DNA of 16,246 nt from Flavobacteriaceae bacterium (GTDB lineage Bacteria; Bacteroidota; Bacteroidia; Flavobacteriales; Flavobacteriaceae). Positions 2,792 to 8,419 of this stretch are shown in pieces (within the stretch, counting starts at the first letter, position 1; each line of letters opens with the position of its first letter). Below the pieces are notes generated by a model that was not told the DNA's origin, did no database searches, and worked only from the letters and a program-made list of their open reading frames with translations. Made by a program: the position numbers and the translations under genes. The stretch lies in assembly GCA_002691265.1 (NCBI GenBank), contig NZHJ01000008.1, forward strand, positions 55,067 to 71,312, read 5' to 3'.

Positions 2792-3698
2792 TGAATGGTT
2801 TATAGTAGCGAACAGGCTCTCTAATTCTGGAAAAGCAATAAGTGTTATTGATAAAGTAGTAAAGAAGCTTAAAGTAGAGAAAATAAAACATAGTCTCAAT
2901 CTAACAATTAAAAGTGGTGATGAAATTGATTTAGTGAAAAGCGCCACAAAAAATGGGTACAATAAAATATTGGCTATCGGGGGAGACGGGACAGTGCAAA
3001 AGGTTGTTGCGGGAATTGTTATGCAGCAGAGTATCAGTCATAAAAAAATGGTCTTTGCGTTGATTCCGTCTGGAACAGGAAATGACTGGGCAAAATCAAA
3101 AAACATTTCCTCAAACATAGATGAGTGCGTAAAGGCTTTAAAAAGCGGTAAGATAAAAACTCAAGATGTTGGAGTTGCCACAATAGAAAGTGCTAATAAA
3201 ATAAGGATAAGGTATTTTATTGCATACTCTGGGGTGGGGTTTGATTCTTTTATGTTAAGTAAAATTGATAAGTATAAGTGGCTCGGTAAACTTTCATATT
3301 TGGTATGTGCAATTATGAACTTCTTAAAGTTTCAAAATATTGCTGTAAAAATTCTAACTTCAAAAAATGAAATTAACACTAATGTGTTCTTACTTGGGAT
3401 AGGAATATGTAAGTTTACAGGCGGAGGGATGCAGTTAATAAAAAAACCTAAGGGCAACGACGGTCTTTTAAATATTACAATTGCTCAAGAATTTAACAAA
3501 TTTGATATAATTCGAAATTTTTTTAATCTTTTTAATGGGTCTATTTTTAAAGAACGTAAAGTTTTGACACTTACGGATAGCGAGGTGAAAATAAGCGCTA
3601 ATAACGGAGATTTAGTGTGTCAGGGGGATGGTGAAATTTTTGGGGCTGGAAAAATAGATTATTCTTTGATCAAAAAAGGGCTTAGATACTTATCTTAA
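2784..3698 (+). CDS. diacylglycerol kinase-family lipid kinase (YegS/DagK-like)
   Basis: This 304-aa protein has the DAGK catalytic domain layout: GGDGT at residues 66-70 (ATP and catalytic loop), PSGTGND at 95-101, and YSGVGFDS near 149, followed by the C-terminal beta-sandwich with GIGICKFTGGGMQLIKKPKGNDG and the late GDGE motif. The family phosphorylates a membrane lipid hydroxyl, such as diacylglycerol or a related lipid, at the inner face of the membrane; the exact substrate cannot be read from the sequence. The N-terminal motif that is usually NPxSGxG reads ANRLSNSGKA here, a mild deviation. It overlaps the end of holB by 8 nt, and its own last 9 nt overlap tail-to-tail with the 3' end of the convergent methyltransferase gene. 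Confidence 0.88.
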   Translation: MSNEWFIVANRLSNSGKAISVIDKVVKKLKVEKIKHSLNLTIKSGDEIDLVKSATKNGYNKILAIGGDGTVQKVVAGIVMQQSISHKKMVFALIPSGTGNDWAKSKNISSNIDECVKALKSGKIKTQDVGVATIESANKIRIRYFIAYSGVGFDSFMLSKIDKYKWLGKLSYLVCAIMNFLKFQNIAVKILTSKNEINTNVFLLGIGICKFTGGGMQLIKKPKGNDGLLNITIAQEFNKFDIIRNFFNLFNGSIFKERKVLTLTDSEVKISANNGDLVCQGDGEIFGAGKIDYSLIKKGLRYLS

Positions 3699-4529
3699 TT
3701 TTTTAAAAACAAAAATATTTGACGAATATTCTTTAGTGAAAAAGGCCAACGTGTTTGAAATTGTTGCTATAAAAATGGACTTAAGGATTTTAAATGTTGA
3801 TTTTTTGTATGATTCGGAAAGCAAAGAAACATAATATGCATCTAAGATCATCGGGCTAGATTTAACGAGCTTAAAGCCTTTGTTTTCAAAAACCTCTTTT
3901 AGTGATTTTTTATCAAAATGCCACAAATGTCTTGGCACATCATAAGCAGCCCAAAATCTTTTATAGTATCTAGCATCAAAAGATAAATAATTGGGTACGC
4001 CAACAATTATGGTTCCTTTTTCATCAAGCAAATCATACATACGGGAGATTGTTTTTTCCAGCTCATGAACATGCTCAATTGAATGCCACGCTGTTATATG
4101 GCTGAGCTTTTGACTGTTCAATTCTTCAGCAAAAATGGATTTATAAACGGTAGTTAAAGAAGGTGTTGCAGACGAGTCAACTCCGCAAGCCTTGATCCCT
4201 CTTTTTTTAAGCTTGTTTAGAAAATAGCCTTCCCCTGAACCGAAGTCCAGAACGTTTCGATTGTTTTTGTTACTAGATAAAAAACGGTATTTGGTGTAAA
4301 AATTAACAGACCTTAAAAATCTGTAAAAGAAAAAAAACACCCCCGTTTTTCTAGAATTGTGAGAGATATATCTTTCTGATTTATAATATTTAATTATGTC
4401 TTCTTTGGTAGGTGTAGGGATTGTTTGAAGTAGGCCTGGAACAGAGGTCTTTTGAATTTTAAATTTTTCTTTTGTTAGAAAATGGTCAATGACTTCAATG
4501 TGTGTTTTTTTTTGTTCCACGTGAAACAT
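3690..4529 (-). CDS. class I SAM-dependent methyltransferase beginning inside a parS site
   Basis: This 279-aa protein has a Rossmann methyltransferase core: motif I VLDFGSGEG at residues 93-101, an acidic end of beta-2 in GVDSS near 117, WHSIEHV near 148 and ILDEKG-like LLDEKGTIIVGVPN near 168. It also carries the DVPRHLWHF segment found in Methyltransf_23-type enzymes, commonly linked to surface-glycan or cofactor modification; the substrate is unknown. The N-terminal PGLLQTIPTPTKEDIIKYYKSERYISH resembles the lead-in of such enzymes but without the zinc-ribbon cysteines some have. The start ATG directly abuts the mnmG stop (TAA then ATG), so the gene is the last of the ybeY-mnmG operon. Its first six codons (MFHVEQ) are made by the parS sequence, followed by a run of nine A. 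The 3' end overlaps the convergent lipid kinase gene by 9 nt. Confidence 0.82.
   Translation of the reverse strand: MFHVEQKKTHIEVIDHFLTKEKFKIQKTSVPGLLQTIPTPTKEDIIKYYKSERYISHNSRKTGVFFFFYRFLRSVNFYTKYRFLSSNKNNRNVLDFGSGEGYFLNKLKKRGIKACGVDSSATPSLTTVYKSIFAEELNSQKLSHITAWHSIEHVHELEKTISRMYDLLDEKGTIIVGVPNYLSFDARYYKRFWAAYDVPRHLWHFDKKSLKEVFENKGFKLVKSSPMILDAYYVSLLSESYKKSTFKILKSIFIATISNTLAFFTKEYSSNIFVFKKLR
4513..4528 (+). promoter_or_regulatory. parS: parS centromere site 1 (ParB binding), overlapping a start codon
   Basis: TGTTCCACGTGAAACA is the classical 16-bp parS sequence bound by chromosomal ParB (Spo0J) proteins, a near-palindrome around CACGTG. ParB loads here as a CTP-dependent clamp, spreads along DNA, and works with ParA and SMC in origin segregation. 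The site covers all but the first base of the methyltransferase start codon and continues through codons 2-5, and it begins 1 nt after the mnmG stop codon. parA and parB are not in the window. An identical site in the other orientation lies 1894 bp away at 6407-6422. Confidence 0.9.
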
Positions 4530-6401
4530 TTAACGACCCATATAAACAAGAAGAACAGATATATCATTGGGTGATACGCCGCTAATTCTTGATGCTTGCG
4601 ATATGGTTTCGGGTTTAATTTTATTTAACTTTTCTAAGGCTTCAGCACTTATTGATTTAAGTTTTTTATAATCGAAATCTTTAGGAATCTTTACAGACTC
4701 CAGTCTGTTTAATTTGTCGGCGTTGTTTTTTTCTTTCTGGATGTAGCCACTGTATTTTATTTGGATTTCGGCTTGATCTTGTACCTCTTCAGAAAGATTG
4801 TTTGTAGAAATGTATGAGTCAACGCTATCGCATTCTTTAAGGTCTGACATATATATATTTGGCCTAGATAAAATTTTGTCAGCTTTGCCAGACTGCTTAA
4901 TTAACGCTGATTCTTTTGAGGAAAGAATGGGGTTAATTTCAGCCGGTAAAATGCTTTGAGATTTTAAAAAACTAATTAAGCCTTCAGACTGTTTGTATTT
5001 TTGATCACATGCGACTAACCTTTCATCACTAGCTAAACCTAATGAATGACTAACCTCTGTCAGCCTTTGATCGGCATTGTCTTGTCTTAAAAGCATTCTA
5101 TATTCTGCTCTTGATGTGAACATTCTGTAAGGCTCTTCAGTTCCTTTTGTAATTAAATCATCAATTAAAACACCAATGTATGCTTCATCTCTTTTAAGCA
5201 CGAAAGGATTTTTTTCTTTAATTTTTAAAACCGCATTAATCCCTGCCATCAAGCCTTGGGATCCGGCTTCCTCATAACCAGTAGTTCCATTAATCTGGCC
5301 TGCAAAAAAAAGATTATCGACAATCTTTGTTTCTAAAGAATATTTGAGTTGTGTTGGGTAGAAATAGTCATATTCAATAGCATAGCCTGGCCTAAAAAAC
5401 TTTACATTTTCAAAGCCTGGAACAGCACGTAAGGCAGAAAACTGAACTTCTTCTGGTAAGGAAGTTGAAAAACCATTAACATAAACCTCTACCGTGTTCC
5501 ATCCTTCGGGCTCAACAAACAATTGGTGTCTTTCTCTTTCTGAAAATCTGTGAATTTTGTCTTCAATTGAAGGGCAATAACGGGGGCCAACACTTTTTAT
5601 TCTGCCGTTAAACATTGGAGACCTGTCAAATCCTTCCCTGAGTAAATCATGAACCACAGGGCTAGTATAAGTCATATGACATGATAATTGTTTTTGTAAA
5701 GGGGTTGACGAATCTAAATAAGAAAATTTTTGAGGGTTTTCATCGCCTGGCTGCTCAATCATTTTAGAATAATCCAGCGATCTTCCATCAACTCTTGGTG
5801 GTGTTCCTGTTTTCATTCTTCCTGAATCAAAACCAAGAGATACAAGCTGCTCTGTTATTCCTGTTGCTGCTTTTTCTCCAGCTCTACCTCCGCCAAAATT
5901 TTTCTCGCCTACATGAATTAATCCATTAAGAAATGTTCCGTTTGTAAGAACTACTGTTTTCCCTTTGATCTTTTGGCCTAAACCTGTAACGACTCCGCAC
6001 AGATTGTTTTTTTCAATCCAAAGATTTTTTACCATTTCTTGGTAAAAATCAAGATTTGGTGTTGACTCAAGCATTTCTCTCCAATATTGAGCAAATAAGG
6101 ACCTGTCATTTTGAGCTCTTGGGCTCCACATAGCTGGGCCTTTTGAAAGGTTGAGCATTTTAAATTGAATTGAAGATTTGTCCGTAACAATTCCGCTGTA
6201 ACCACCAATAGCATCAATTTCTCTGACAATTTGACCTTTCGCAATTCCACCCATTGCTGGGTTGCATGACATCTGACCAATGGTTTGGAGGTTCATTGTA
6301 ACCAATAGTGTTTTTGCACCAAGATTAGCTGCGGCCGCTGCAGCCTCACTGCCAGCATGCCCACCACCAACTACTATAACGTCATATTCTTGATTAAACA
6401 T
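4530..6401 (-). CDS. mnmG: tRNA uridine-5-carboxymethylaminomethyl(34) synthesis enzyme MnmG (GidA)
   Basis: MnmG (623 aa, the normal length) is the FAD-binding partner of MnmE. Together they install the carboxymethylaminomethyl group at wobble uridine 34 of certain tRNAs, improving decoding of purine-ending codons. The sequence shows the FAD-binding GGGHAG at residues 12-17, the conserved SCNPAMGGIAKG with C46, SKGPAMWSPRAQNDR near 88, RYCPSIEDKIHRF with the second conserved cysteine near 277, and the GIDA signature region RPGYAIEYDYFYPTQL and AGQINGTTGYEEAGSQGLMAG near 345-385. The C-terminal helical domain ends in VSPNDISVLLVYMGR, which in this family contacts MnmE and tRNA. The gene lies between two parS sites and directly abuts the downstream methyltransferase start. 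ybeY ends 37 nt upstream. Confidence 0.98.
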   Translation of the reverse strand: MFNQEYDVIVVGGGHAGSEAAAAAANLGAKTLLVTMNLQTIGQMSCNPAMGGIAKGQIVREIDAIGGYSGIVTDKSSIQFKMLNLSKGPAMWSPRAQNDRSLFAQYWREMLESTPNLDFYQEMVKNLWIEKNNLCGVVTGLGQKIKGKTVVLTNGTFLNGLIHVGEKNFGGGRAGEKAATGITEQLVSLGFDSGRMKTGTPPRVDGRSLDYSKMIEQPGDENPQKFSYLDSSTPLQKQLSCHMTYTSPVVHDLLREGFDRSPMFNGRIKSVGPRYCPSIEDKIHRFSERERHQLFVEPEGWNTVEVYVNGFSTSLPEEVQFSALRAVPGFENVKFFRPGYAIEYDYFYPTQLKYSLETKIVDNLFFAGQINGTTGYEEAGSQGLMAGINAVLKIKEKNPFVLKRDEAYIGVLIDDLITKGTEEPYRMFTSRAEYRMLLRQDNADQRLTEVSHSLGLASDERLVACDQKYKQSEGLISFLKSQSILPAEINPILSSKESALIKQSGKADKILSRPNIYMSDLKECDSVDSYISTNNLSEEVQDQAEIQIKYSGYIQKEKNNADKLNRLESVKIPKDFDYKKLKSISAEALEKLNKIKPETISQASRISGVSPNDISVLLVYMGR

Positions 6402-6406
6402 ATGCT

Positions 6407-6422
6407 TGTTTCACGTGGAACA
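6407..6422 (-). promoter_or_regulatory. parS: parS centromere site 2 in the mnmG leader
   Basis: The plus strand reads TGTTTCACGTGGAACA, whose reverse complement is exactly the site 1 sequence TGTTCCACGTGAAACA. It is therefore the same 16-mer in inverted orientation. It sits 5 nt ahead of the mnmG start codon, between ybeY and mnmG, and next to a predicted -7 promoter element at 6429-6436. ParB bound here would cover the predicted transcription start and the ribosome-loading region of mnmG. Such near-gidA positions for parS are typical of origin-proximal regions in many bacteria. Confidence 0.9.
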
Positions 6423-6428
6423 TTTGTG

Positions 6429-6436
6429 CAAATATA
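6429..6436 (-). promoter_or_regulatory. possible internal mnmG -7 element (TATATTTG)
   Basis: The minus strand reads TATATTTG, an exact TAnnTTTG match, between ybeY and mnmG. No TTG is present at the expected -33 distance, so this could be a weak or chance match in AT-rich DNA. If used, transcription would begin at about 6421-6424, at the edge of parS site 2, with a leader of about 20 nt consisting mostly of that site. Confidence 0.35.
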
Positions 6437-6438
6437 AT

Positions 6439-6861
6439 TTATTTATAAGTGGAATGAAAAGTAGCTATAGCTTTGTCTTCAGCTGACCTTATAACAACCA
6501 AGTCTTTACTGTTTTTGTCTTTATGACCACAAAGATGAAAAAGCGCATGACACAAGACTCTAAGCGTCTCATTTTCAATGGTTTGTAAATAATCACTAGC
6601 GTTTTGTTCAACTATTTGTTGACAAACAAACACCTCTCCGGAAAGCTCTTTGTCTTCACAATAATCAAAGGCAATTACATCTGTAGGGTAATCGTGATTG
6701 AGAAACTGACGGTTTATAGACTGTATTTTTTTTGCCGAGACAAAGTTATAATGAAGGTTTTTAATACTAAAACCTTCACTCTTAGCCAGAAAGTAAAGCC
6801 AGTCAGATATCTGTTTTTTATTGCCAAGTATAAAATCAGTATTAAAAGTAAACTCAATCAT
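6439..6861 (-). CDS. ybeY: endoribonuclease YbeY (rRNA maturation factor)
   Basis: YbeY is a single-strand-specific metallo-endoribonuclease used in 16S rRNA 3'-end maturation and 70S ribosome quality control. The 140-aa protein from the ATG at 6861 shows HDYPTDVIAFDY (near residue 56) and the metal site HALFHLCGHKDK, with H105 and H109 as the first two ligands. The third ligand position, histidine in E. coli YbeY (HxxxHxxxxxH), is D115 here, while an extra histidine is at 113. A longer frame starting at 6879 exists, but MIEFTFNTDFIL matches how flavobacterial YbeY proteins start, and a predicted -7 element at 6867-6874 lies inside the extension. It is first in the operon ybeY-mnmG-methyltransferase and divergent from gltX. 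Confidence 0.9.
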   Translation of the reverse strand: MIEFTFNTDFILGNKKQISDWLYFLAKSEGFSIKNLHYNFVSAKKIQSINRQFLNHDYPTDVIAFDYCEDKELSGEVFVCQQIVEQNASDYLQTIENETLRVLCHALFHLCGHKDKNSKDLVVIRSAEDKAIATFHSTYK

Positions 6862-6866
6862 AGAAA

Positions 6867-6874
6867 CAAAACTA
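6867..6874 (-). promoter_or_regulatory. possible ybeY -7 element (TAGTTTTG)
   Basis: The minus strand TAGTTTTG fits TAnnTTTG and ends 5 nt before the ybeY start codon, so a transcript beginning 5-8 nt downstream would be essentially leaderless. No well-placed -33 TTG is visible. The element supports the shorter ybeY start, though only weakly. Confidence 0.35.
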
Positions 6875-6900
6875 CACAATCAATTGAAGAATTAATGTTT

Positions 6901-6908
6901 TATATTTG
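6901..6908 (+). promoter_or_regulatory. predicted gltX -7 element (TATATTTG)
   Basis: TATATTTG is an exact match to the Bacteroidota -7 consensus, 23 nt before the gltX GTG start, predicting a leader of roughly 16-18 nt. The nearest upstream TTG (6884-6886) is only 14 nt away, closer than usual, so the -33 half is uncertain. Confidence 0.5.
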
Positions 6909-6931
6909 ACAAAAGTAATTATTACACTATT

Positions 6932-8419
6932 GTGAGACGAGTAAGATTTGCACCAAGCCCAACAGGACCGCTTCACGTGGGTGGTCTGCGAACAGCTCTG
7001 TTTAACTACCTGTTTACCAAAAATTCTGGAGGTGATTTTATTCTTAGAATTGAAGACACTGACAAAAAAAGAGAGGTACCAGGAGCTGAGCAATATATTG
7101 TTGACGCACTAGCTTGGTGTGGAATCACTCCCGATGAAGGCCCAAAAACAGGCGGCAAGCTTGGCCCTTACAGGCAGAGCGAGAGAAATCATTTGTATGA
7201 AGAAAAAATTAAGATCTTAGTTAATTCTGGGCAGGCTTATTATGCATTTGATTCTGAAGAAGAGCTTAATTTGTATAGAGAAGATTCTGAAAAAAAGGGA
7301 GAGACCTTTATTTATAATTGGAAAAACCGAAAGTCTCTCAAAAACTCTCTTTCGCTTGACAAAGAATCTGTGGAAAAGCTACTTGAAAAAGGAGAAAAGC
7401 ATGTAATAAGATTTTTATCACCTGAGAGCCAGGAGGTTAAAACTGTTGATGTAATAAGAGGCGAGTCTGTTATTGACTCTAGTTTGCTGGATGACAAAAT
7501 CTTAATTAAGGCTAACGGAACTCCTACGTATCATTTTGCCAATGTAGTTGATGATCACTTAATGAAAATTACCCATGTAATTAGAGGGGAAGAGTGGTTG
7601 CCTTCTTTGGCGCTACACGTTCTCTTGTATGACGCGTTTGGCTGGGAAAAGCCGATTTTTGCTCACCTTCCTTTAATCCTCAACCCCAACGGAAAAGGAA
7701 AGCTGAGCAAGAGAAGTGGTGAAAAAGGAGGGTTTCCAGTGTTTCCAATCGACTGGAGAGAGGATACCAAGCTAAAAGGTTTTAGAGAGTCCGGCATCCT
7801 TCCAGAAGGATTAGTTAACTATTTAGCAACACTTGGCTGGTCACCTGAAGAAGGCTTAGAGATATTGACGCTACGTAAGCTAACAGAACTGTTTTTATTG
7901 GAAAATGTTGTTTCATCTGCTGCAAACTTTGATTTTGAGAAACTAAAATGGTATAACCACAAGCATATCCAAACAACAGAAAGCTTTAAGCTGGCTGAGT
8001 TGCTTGAAAGTCTAAATAAGAACGCTGGTGAAATTATAAAGGAAAAGTTGGCAGACGCTATAACTCTTGTAAAAGAAAGAGCTAATACTGTTTCTGATCT
8101 GTGGGGGTTAGTAAGTTATCTGTTTTTTGACCCGATAAGCTACGATGAAAAAAGTTTAAAAAAGATATCTAAAGACGGTCTCGAAAAAATAGTTTCTGAA
8201 ATAATTAGTCAGTGTAAGAAAAGAGATGGTACATCAGGATTCGTTGAAAATCTAACGTCTTGGGGTGATGAAATTGGAATAGGGGCTGGTCAAATAATGA
8301 TGACTACAAGAGTAATCTTAACCGGTAGTTTGACAGGTGTTGGTGTTCAAGAAATAGTGTCGTTCATTGGGTTAGAGAGCGTTGGTCGACGTGCGGAAAA
8401 ATTTAAAACCGGAATTTAA
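6932..8419 (+). CDS. gltX: glutamyl-tRNA synthetase
   Basis: This class Ic aminoacyl-tRNA synthetase (495 aa) charges tRNA-Glu with glutamate using ATP. The Rossmann catalytic core begins at once with RFAPSPTGPLHVGG, in which HVGG (residues 15-18) is the HIGH motif. RIEDTD follows near 40, and KLSKR (residues 257-261) is the KMSKS motif. The C-terminal half is the helical anticodon-binding region. The start codon is GTG at 6932, because no ATG fits and the catalytic core starts only four residues later. A glnS gene is also present in the window, so GltX here is expected to be the discriminating form that charges only tRNA-Glu. It is followed after 78 nt by the SPFH gene on the same strand. 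Confidence 0.98.
   Translation: MRRVRFAPSPTGPLHVGGLRTALFNYLFTKNSGGDFILRIEDTDKKREVPGAEQYIVDALAWCGITPDEGPKTGGKLGPYRQSERNHLYEEKIKILVNSGQAYYAFDSEEELNLYREDSEKKGETFIYNWKNRKSLKNSLSLDKESVEKLLEKGEKHVIRFLSPESQEVKTVDVIRGESVIDSSLLDDKILIKANGTPTYHFANVVDDHLMKITHVIRGEEWLPSLALHVLLYDAFGWEKPIFAHLPLILNPNGKGKLSKRSGEKGGFPVFPIDWREDTKLKGFRESGILPEGLVNYLATLGWSPEEGLEILTLRKLTELFLLENVVSSAANFDFEKLKWYNHKHIQTTESFKLAELLESLNKNAGEIIKEKLADAITLVKERANTVSDLWGLVSYLFFDPISYDEKSLKKISKDGLEKIVSEIISQCKKRDGTSGFVENLTSWGDEIGIGAGQIMMTTRVILTGSLTGVGVQEIVSFIGLESVGRRAEKFKTGI

Follow-up and report, generated by a model that had tools for sequence, protein, structure and literature searches.

The window analysed here, a stretch of 16,246 nucleotides from a Flavobacteriaceae bacterium, raises the question of what two identical, nearly palindromic 16-mers are doing at the two ends of mnmG, and whether it is the gene or the chromosomal neighbourhood that keeps them there. 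Very probably, both 16-mers are parS sites on the chromosome, belonging to a Bacteroidota ParABS system and retained for their nearness to the replication origin, with mnmG as no more than their usual neighbour. The evidence comes from the sites themselves, from the ParB of the genome, from the placement of parS in relatives and from the GC skew of single-contig relatives.

The paired sites and their gene context

The sequence TGTTCCACGTGAAACA occurs exactly at 4513-4528 on the plus strand and at 6407-6422 on the minus strand, with 1894 bp from start to start, which confirms the sequence and coordinates reported by an initial annotation of the window. That annotation had considered a chance pair very unlikely, and indeed none of 200 dinucleotide shuffles of the window contained two copies. 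A looser scan of the window, in which two variable positions were set to N and as many as 3 mismatches were allowed, yielded 2 extra matches, each with 3 mismatches, against 0.69 expected. Across the source MAG (1,361,524 bp, 38 contigs, 78.5% complete), TGTTNCACGTGNAACA has no exact match other than these two, and the 16-mer is thus not scattered over the recovered part of the genome; four more places match with 1-2 mismatches, which is chance level because the reversed control pattern yields equally many matches (6 vs 6). The opposite orientation of the copies, to which the same annotation had drawn attention, carries little meaning because 7 of its 8 base-pair positions are palindromic, so that the plus and minus readings of the 16-mer differ at one position.

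In the direction of transcription, along the minus strand, the order is ybeY, site 2, mnmG, and site 1 at the start of a methyltransferase gene. The ybeY gene (6439..6879, minus strand), encoding the rRNA maturation RNase, lies upstream of mnmG, while mnmG itself (gidA; 4530..6401, minus strand; TIGR00136, 841 bits; PF01134), which encodes the tRNA uridine-5-carboxymethylaminomethyl(34) synthesis enzyme, lies between the sites, and its stop codon directly abuts the start of a SAM-dependent methyltransferase (Methyltransf_23; 3690..4529, minus strand; TAA followed at once by ATG). Site 1 (4513..4528, assigned no strand) covers methyltransferase codons 1-6 (MFHVEQ), and site 2 (6407..6422, likewise without strand) is located within the 37-bp gap between ybeY and mnmG, 5 bp 5' of the mnmG ATG. 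Both occupy the same positions in G055, a genome of the same genus with an identical layout, in which the outer base of site 2 is changed so that it ends in C instead of A.

At 6429..6436 on the minus strand, 6 bp 5' of site 2, lies TATATTTG, with TATCTTTG at the matching place in G055. It resembles TAnnTTTG, the consensus of the Bacteroidota -7 promoter element; its start is 15 bp from the start of the parS core. A scan of positions 3500-7200 for sigma-70-type promoters returned sites no more commonly than in shuffles. A 9-codon mini-ORF, MFHVKQAYV followed by a stop (6394..6423, minus strand), begins on site 2 and overlaps the start of mnmG; its G055 counterpart reads MFHVKPAYV before the stop, and it is possibly incidental.

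A parS-type ParB and the recurrence of parS at mnmG

The identification of the sites as parS, already proposed by the initial annotation, is upheld by a consensus match far above chance and by a predicted partner protein, a ParB with R173 and G201. The one parB found in the source MAG is located on contig C14, immediately 3' of parA (locus L007, adjacent genes: ParA 629-1390, ParB 1393-2268, given without strand). In profile searches, this ParB passes TIGR00180 (153 bits, above the cut-off of 58) and PF02195/PF17762; the Noc model TIGR04285 scores 225 bits, higher than TIGR00180 but below its own cut-off of 315. Among solved structures, Noc proteins score best against it, with ParBs such as 7bnk, 4umk, and 6t1f next. 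The GERR box, the CTP-binding box of ParB, is present alongside R173 and G201 in 13 of 13 ParBs aligned, comprising the genome's own protein and those of 12 relatives. The DNA-binding region of the own ParB aligns without gaps to the Caulobacter numbering of PMC7383237, in which these two residues are of the parS type rather than the Noc type (Q173/R201); the available text of that paper describes R173 and G201 as absolutely conserved in ParB and residue 184 as variable among ParBs. At position 172, the own ParB has K instead of S, and at position 184 it has K, as in Noc. In 13 genomes, the 3.5-kb parAB loci contained no exact parS core.

The pattern is widespread. An exact copy is present in 132 of the 149 family genomes drawn, with 1-3 copies each, and absent from 17, while the reversed control pattern gave no match in any of the 149. 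Among the matches listed, which cover 47 of the positive family genomes (G000 included, as well as G015, whose mnmG is split; G141 and G055 left out), an end of mnmG is no more than 400 bp away for 72 of 76 sites (50 upstream and 22 downstream), and at least one such site occurs in 46 of the 47 genomes. Counting exact sites only, 20 of these genomes carry sites on both sides of mnmG, 26 on one side, and 1 on neither. The closest relatives are more regular: 80 loci nearest by mnmG were kept, an uneven sample in which 78 could be counted, two being too short in flank, and with at most 1 mismatch in the 14-bp core both sides of mnmG have a site in 72 of the 78. The exact core is present on both sides in 65; a site on one side only was seen in 5, and on neither side in 1, the Capnocytophaga locus L114.

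Beyond the family, a class-wide draw gave the parS core in 89 of 99 genomes, the reversed control giving one match in 15 of 99. Of 26 class-level genomes among the matches listed, 22 have a site no farther than 400 bp from an mnmG end, and 24 have one no farther than 2 kb; this set leaves out G127 and G242, represents G181 by 3 of its 12 sites, and uses one piece of the split mnmG of G202, while G161 gave no mnmG match. In three class-level genomes (G243:C55, G169:C18, and G219:C1), the core lies, also or solely, inside mnmG itself. A limited search of the open-licence PMC literature found no description of parS bracketing mnmG.

The immediate context of the sites varies among relatives, where parS may occupy the mnmG leader, the end of ybeY, the beginning of the next ORF, or a hairpin. 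Of 79 cases with an upstream site, relatives and window together, that site overlaps the 3' end of the ORF before it in 26 and lies outside any upstream ORF in the other 53; ten of those 26 ORFs were tested, and all ten are YbeY. Of 75 cases on the downstream side, the site lies within the next ORF or at its beginning in 12, just before it in 19, and in neither position in 44. Such varied contexts therefore point to selection on the parS DNA element itself, not on a peptide or on a single regulatory geometry.

A role of parS as intrinsic terminator of mnmG was also considered. Among seven sequences folded, the downstream parS forms the core of a long-stem hairpin in L040, L050, L083, and L089, some followed by T-runs, and in these loci it may double as a terminator. 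Pairing arms of at least 5 beyond the core occur at 8 of 79 downstream sites and at 11 of 103 upstream sites. As upstream sites have arms too, and as folding of the two sites in the window is no more stable than that of shuffled sequences (z -0.59 and +1.27), intrinsic termination of mnmG was rejected as a general function of parS.

Position of parS relative to the replication origin

The initial annotation had regarded the window as origin-proximal. On its own contig, GC skew is uninformative, the contig being too short and the genome fragmented; in relatives of the same family, the proposal finds support, sharp in one genome and less so in others. Five of seven single-contig family genomes were sampled (G059, G118, G023, G143, and G078), and a two-step model was fitted to the GC skew of 4-fold sites, corrected for gene strand, on sampled stretches. 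The best skew origin lies 19 kb from parS in G059, 13 kb in G118, 12 kb in G023, 138 kb in G143, and 234 kb in G078, whereas in the five the fitted origin is separated from parB by 811-1275 kb and from dnaA by 1117-2169 kb; parB is about 0.8-1.4 Mb from both parS and the fitted origin. Stretches were resampled in 60 bootstraps per genome, and parS was the nearest of parS, parB, and dnaA in 60, 55, 56, 52, and 53 of these, in the same order of genomes. The parS pair is real and conserved, and its link to the origin is probable.

The sharpness of the fits differs. A single 10-kb bin is supported in G059; the supported ranges are wide in G078 (0.64-1.37 Mb), G118 (1.00-1.46 Mb), and G143 (2.17-3.15 Mb). 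The range in G143 does not cover parS, at 2.03 Mb, and even the best bin no farther than 50 kb from it loses 7.2 units. Earlier, coarser fits gave origins at 1.00 Mb (G118) and 1.18 Mb (G023). DnaA-box clusters were discarded as origin evidence at the parS sites: the window has 56 matches with at most 1 mismatch against 62 expected, which is no enrichment, and no DnaA-box peak was seen near mnmG across 80 loci.

An origin next to mnmG has been predicted in print. The available text of PMC11278836 reports such a prediction by Ori-Finder and GC skew for Mariniflexile litorale KMM 9835, with a dnaA position inconsistent with the skew, although a figure legend of the same paper gives mnmG as ter and leuB/dnaA as oriC, opposite to its text. 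Similarly, in the portion of PMC12843772 at hand, the oriC of strain KMM 8389 (Flavobacteriaceae) is predicted at mnmG by Ori-Finder and skew. These predicted origins lie next to mnmG, as the sites described here do, and no mention of parS was found in the available text of either paper.

mnmG and parS usually lie together, and one genome separates them. In G023, three parS copies are located about 280 kb away from mnmG, two of them flanking a homologue of the window's methyltransferase (37% identical, and by sequence a likely orthologue), and the 20-kb stretch containing mnmG has no core match even at 2 mismatches. A denser skew fit of G023 puts the origin at a distance of 12 kb from parS but 268 kb from mnmG; the best bin is at parS, and the fit loss is 10.4 near mnmG versus 0 near parS. 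In 42 of 60 bootstraps, parS was nearer the origin than mnmG was. From G023 there is therefore moderate evidence, short of decisive, that parS follows the origin rather than mnmG. Taken with the other genomes, parS appears to be tied to the origin region, with mnmG as its usual neighbour.

Why the sites bracket mnmG

In the standard course of ParABS segregation, ParB loads at parS and spreads, and ParA moves the resulting complex, with Smc-ScpAB as the usual partner. Applied to the window, ParB, encoded with ParA on another contig, would load at both parS sites and spread over the mnmG region, and ParA would move the covered region, leading to early separation of newly copied origins. The sites would be kept because this stretch lies near the window genome's own origin of replication, and mnmG would not be the reason.

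How the bracket itself arose is a separate matter, on which a compatible account differs from the preferred reading in nothing else. According to it, the origin link alone is selected and the bracket is passive, the edges of mnmG tolerating parS and rearrangements rarely breaking the cluster. We give this account roughly even chances. The number and side of the sites vary, as seen in the arrays upstream of mnmG in several Flavobacterium loci, in one-sided loci, in sites inside mnmG, and in the varied gene contexts, all of which fit a passive bracket, although the two-sided arrangement in 72 of 78 close relatives is more regular than free drift suggests.

It is conceivable, though rather doubtful, that the paired layout is itself selected. 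ParB clamps entering from both ends would then keep the 1.9-kb mnmG densely covered, forming a ParA-responsive complex that works without Smc-ScpAB or with an unrecognised condensin, and this compact parS island would be the Flavobacteriaceae centromere, about 1 Mb from parAB and dnaA. The condensin search covered ten genomes (G000, G055, G059, G143, G023, G078, G087, G014, G118, and G024, of which G000 and G055 are incomplete). ScpA (PF02616) was found in 0 of 10, versus 9 of 14 controls, and SMC_prok_B scored over its cut-off in 0 of 10, all of which gave weak partial matches only, versus 10 of 14 controls. The MksE-like PF13835 also gave 0 of 10, a result that is uninformative because only 1 of 14 controls scored. 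The available text of PMC10197239 reports that a search of two other Bacteroidetes turned up no known condensin, in agreement with the Smc-ScpAB result.

Regulation of mnmG is an unlikely reason for the sites. The initial annotation had suggested that mnmG expression may be linked to segregation; in such an arrangement, the sites would be ParB operators for mnmG, and perhaps for the methyltransferase, with ParB at site 2 covering the promoter or 5' leader and clamps from both sites covering the gene. Site 2 does lie just past the TAnnTTTG-like box and just before the mnmG ATG, in G055 as in the window, and the two-sided placement is common among the named relatives. However, the upstream site often sits in the end of the upstream ORF, exact sites flank both sides in fewer than half of the 47 family genomes, and the mnmG of G023 has no site at all. 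Fixed promoter geometry was rejected as well: TAnnTTTG occurs within 300 bp upstream in 40 cases, a raw count, and the distance from box start to core start is 24-45 bp in only 14 of them. Apart from proximity, no support emerged for a role of parS in mnmG control or for the suggested link of expression to segregation.

Conservation at the protein level is disfavoured: 25 of the 26 overlapped upstream ORFs have FHVE (22) or FHVK (3) in their final stretch, exactly FHVEQ and a stop in 10, and MFHVEQ begins the methyltransferase in both the window and G055, but with identical DNA outside the upstream ORFs in most cases and in another frame in L108, it is extremely improbable that an FHVEQ or MFHVEQ peptide of YbeY or the methyltransferase is what is kept.

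The preferred reading, parS kept near the origin, places the system among known ones. It shares with the Bacillus subtilis Spo0J/Soj and Caulobacter ParB type a 16-bp near-palindromic parS, a ParB with R173/G201, and a ParA encoded beside ParB; in relatives, the sites also lie closer to the fitted origin than parB or dnaA do. Unlike that type, parB is far from parS in the five relatives, the parAB loci of 13 genomes are devoid of the exact core, and Smc-ScpAB is undetected in the ten genomes searched. The distribution of parS was reportedly treated by Livny and colleagues in 2007. In gut bacteria including Bacteroides caecimuris, a parS cluster and skew together place ori, which is not always at dnaA, as stated in the available text of PMC10197239, where placement of parS at mnmG is not mentioned. 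Systems of this kind are already known; of use here are the anchoring of parS to mnmG across the lineage and the long distance that separates it from parAB and dnaA. parS at mnmG is a simple sequence mark by which the centromere and the likely origin region can be located in a large group in which, for the five genomes measured, dnaA and parAB are remote from the skew origin. It also draws attention to a ParB-parS system that may do without Smc-ScpAB.

Variants in site number and sequence were also encountered. In L065 (Flavobacterium), four parS-like copies with a CACATG centre lie 5' of mnmG at a spacing of 116-118 bp, and additional copies extend up to 1.2 kb upstream of the gene. The class-level genome G181 has seven parS cores about 99 bp apart at G181:C24:13203-13809, and five others on three more contigs. 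Near mnmG in L083, L086, L089, and L102 (Tenacibaculum and Polaribacter), the sites are altered, with outer bases changed or with CATGTG, CACATG, or CTCGTG centres, possibly reflecting a shifted parS consensus.
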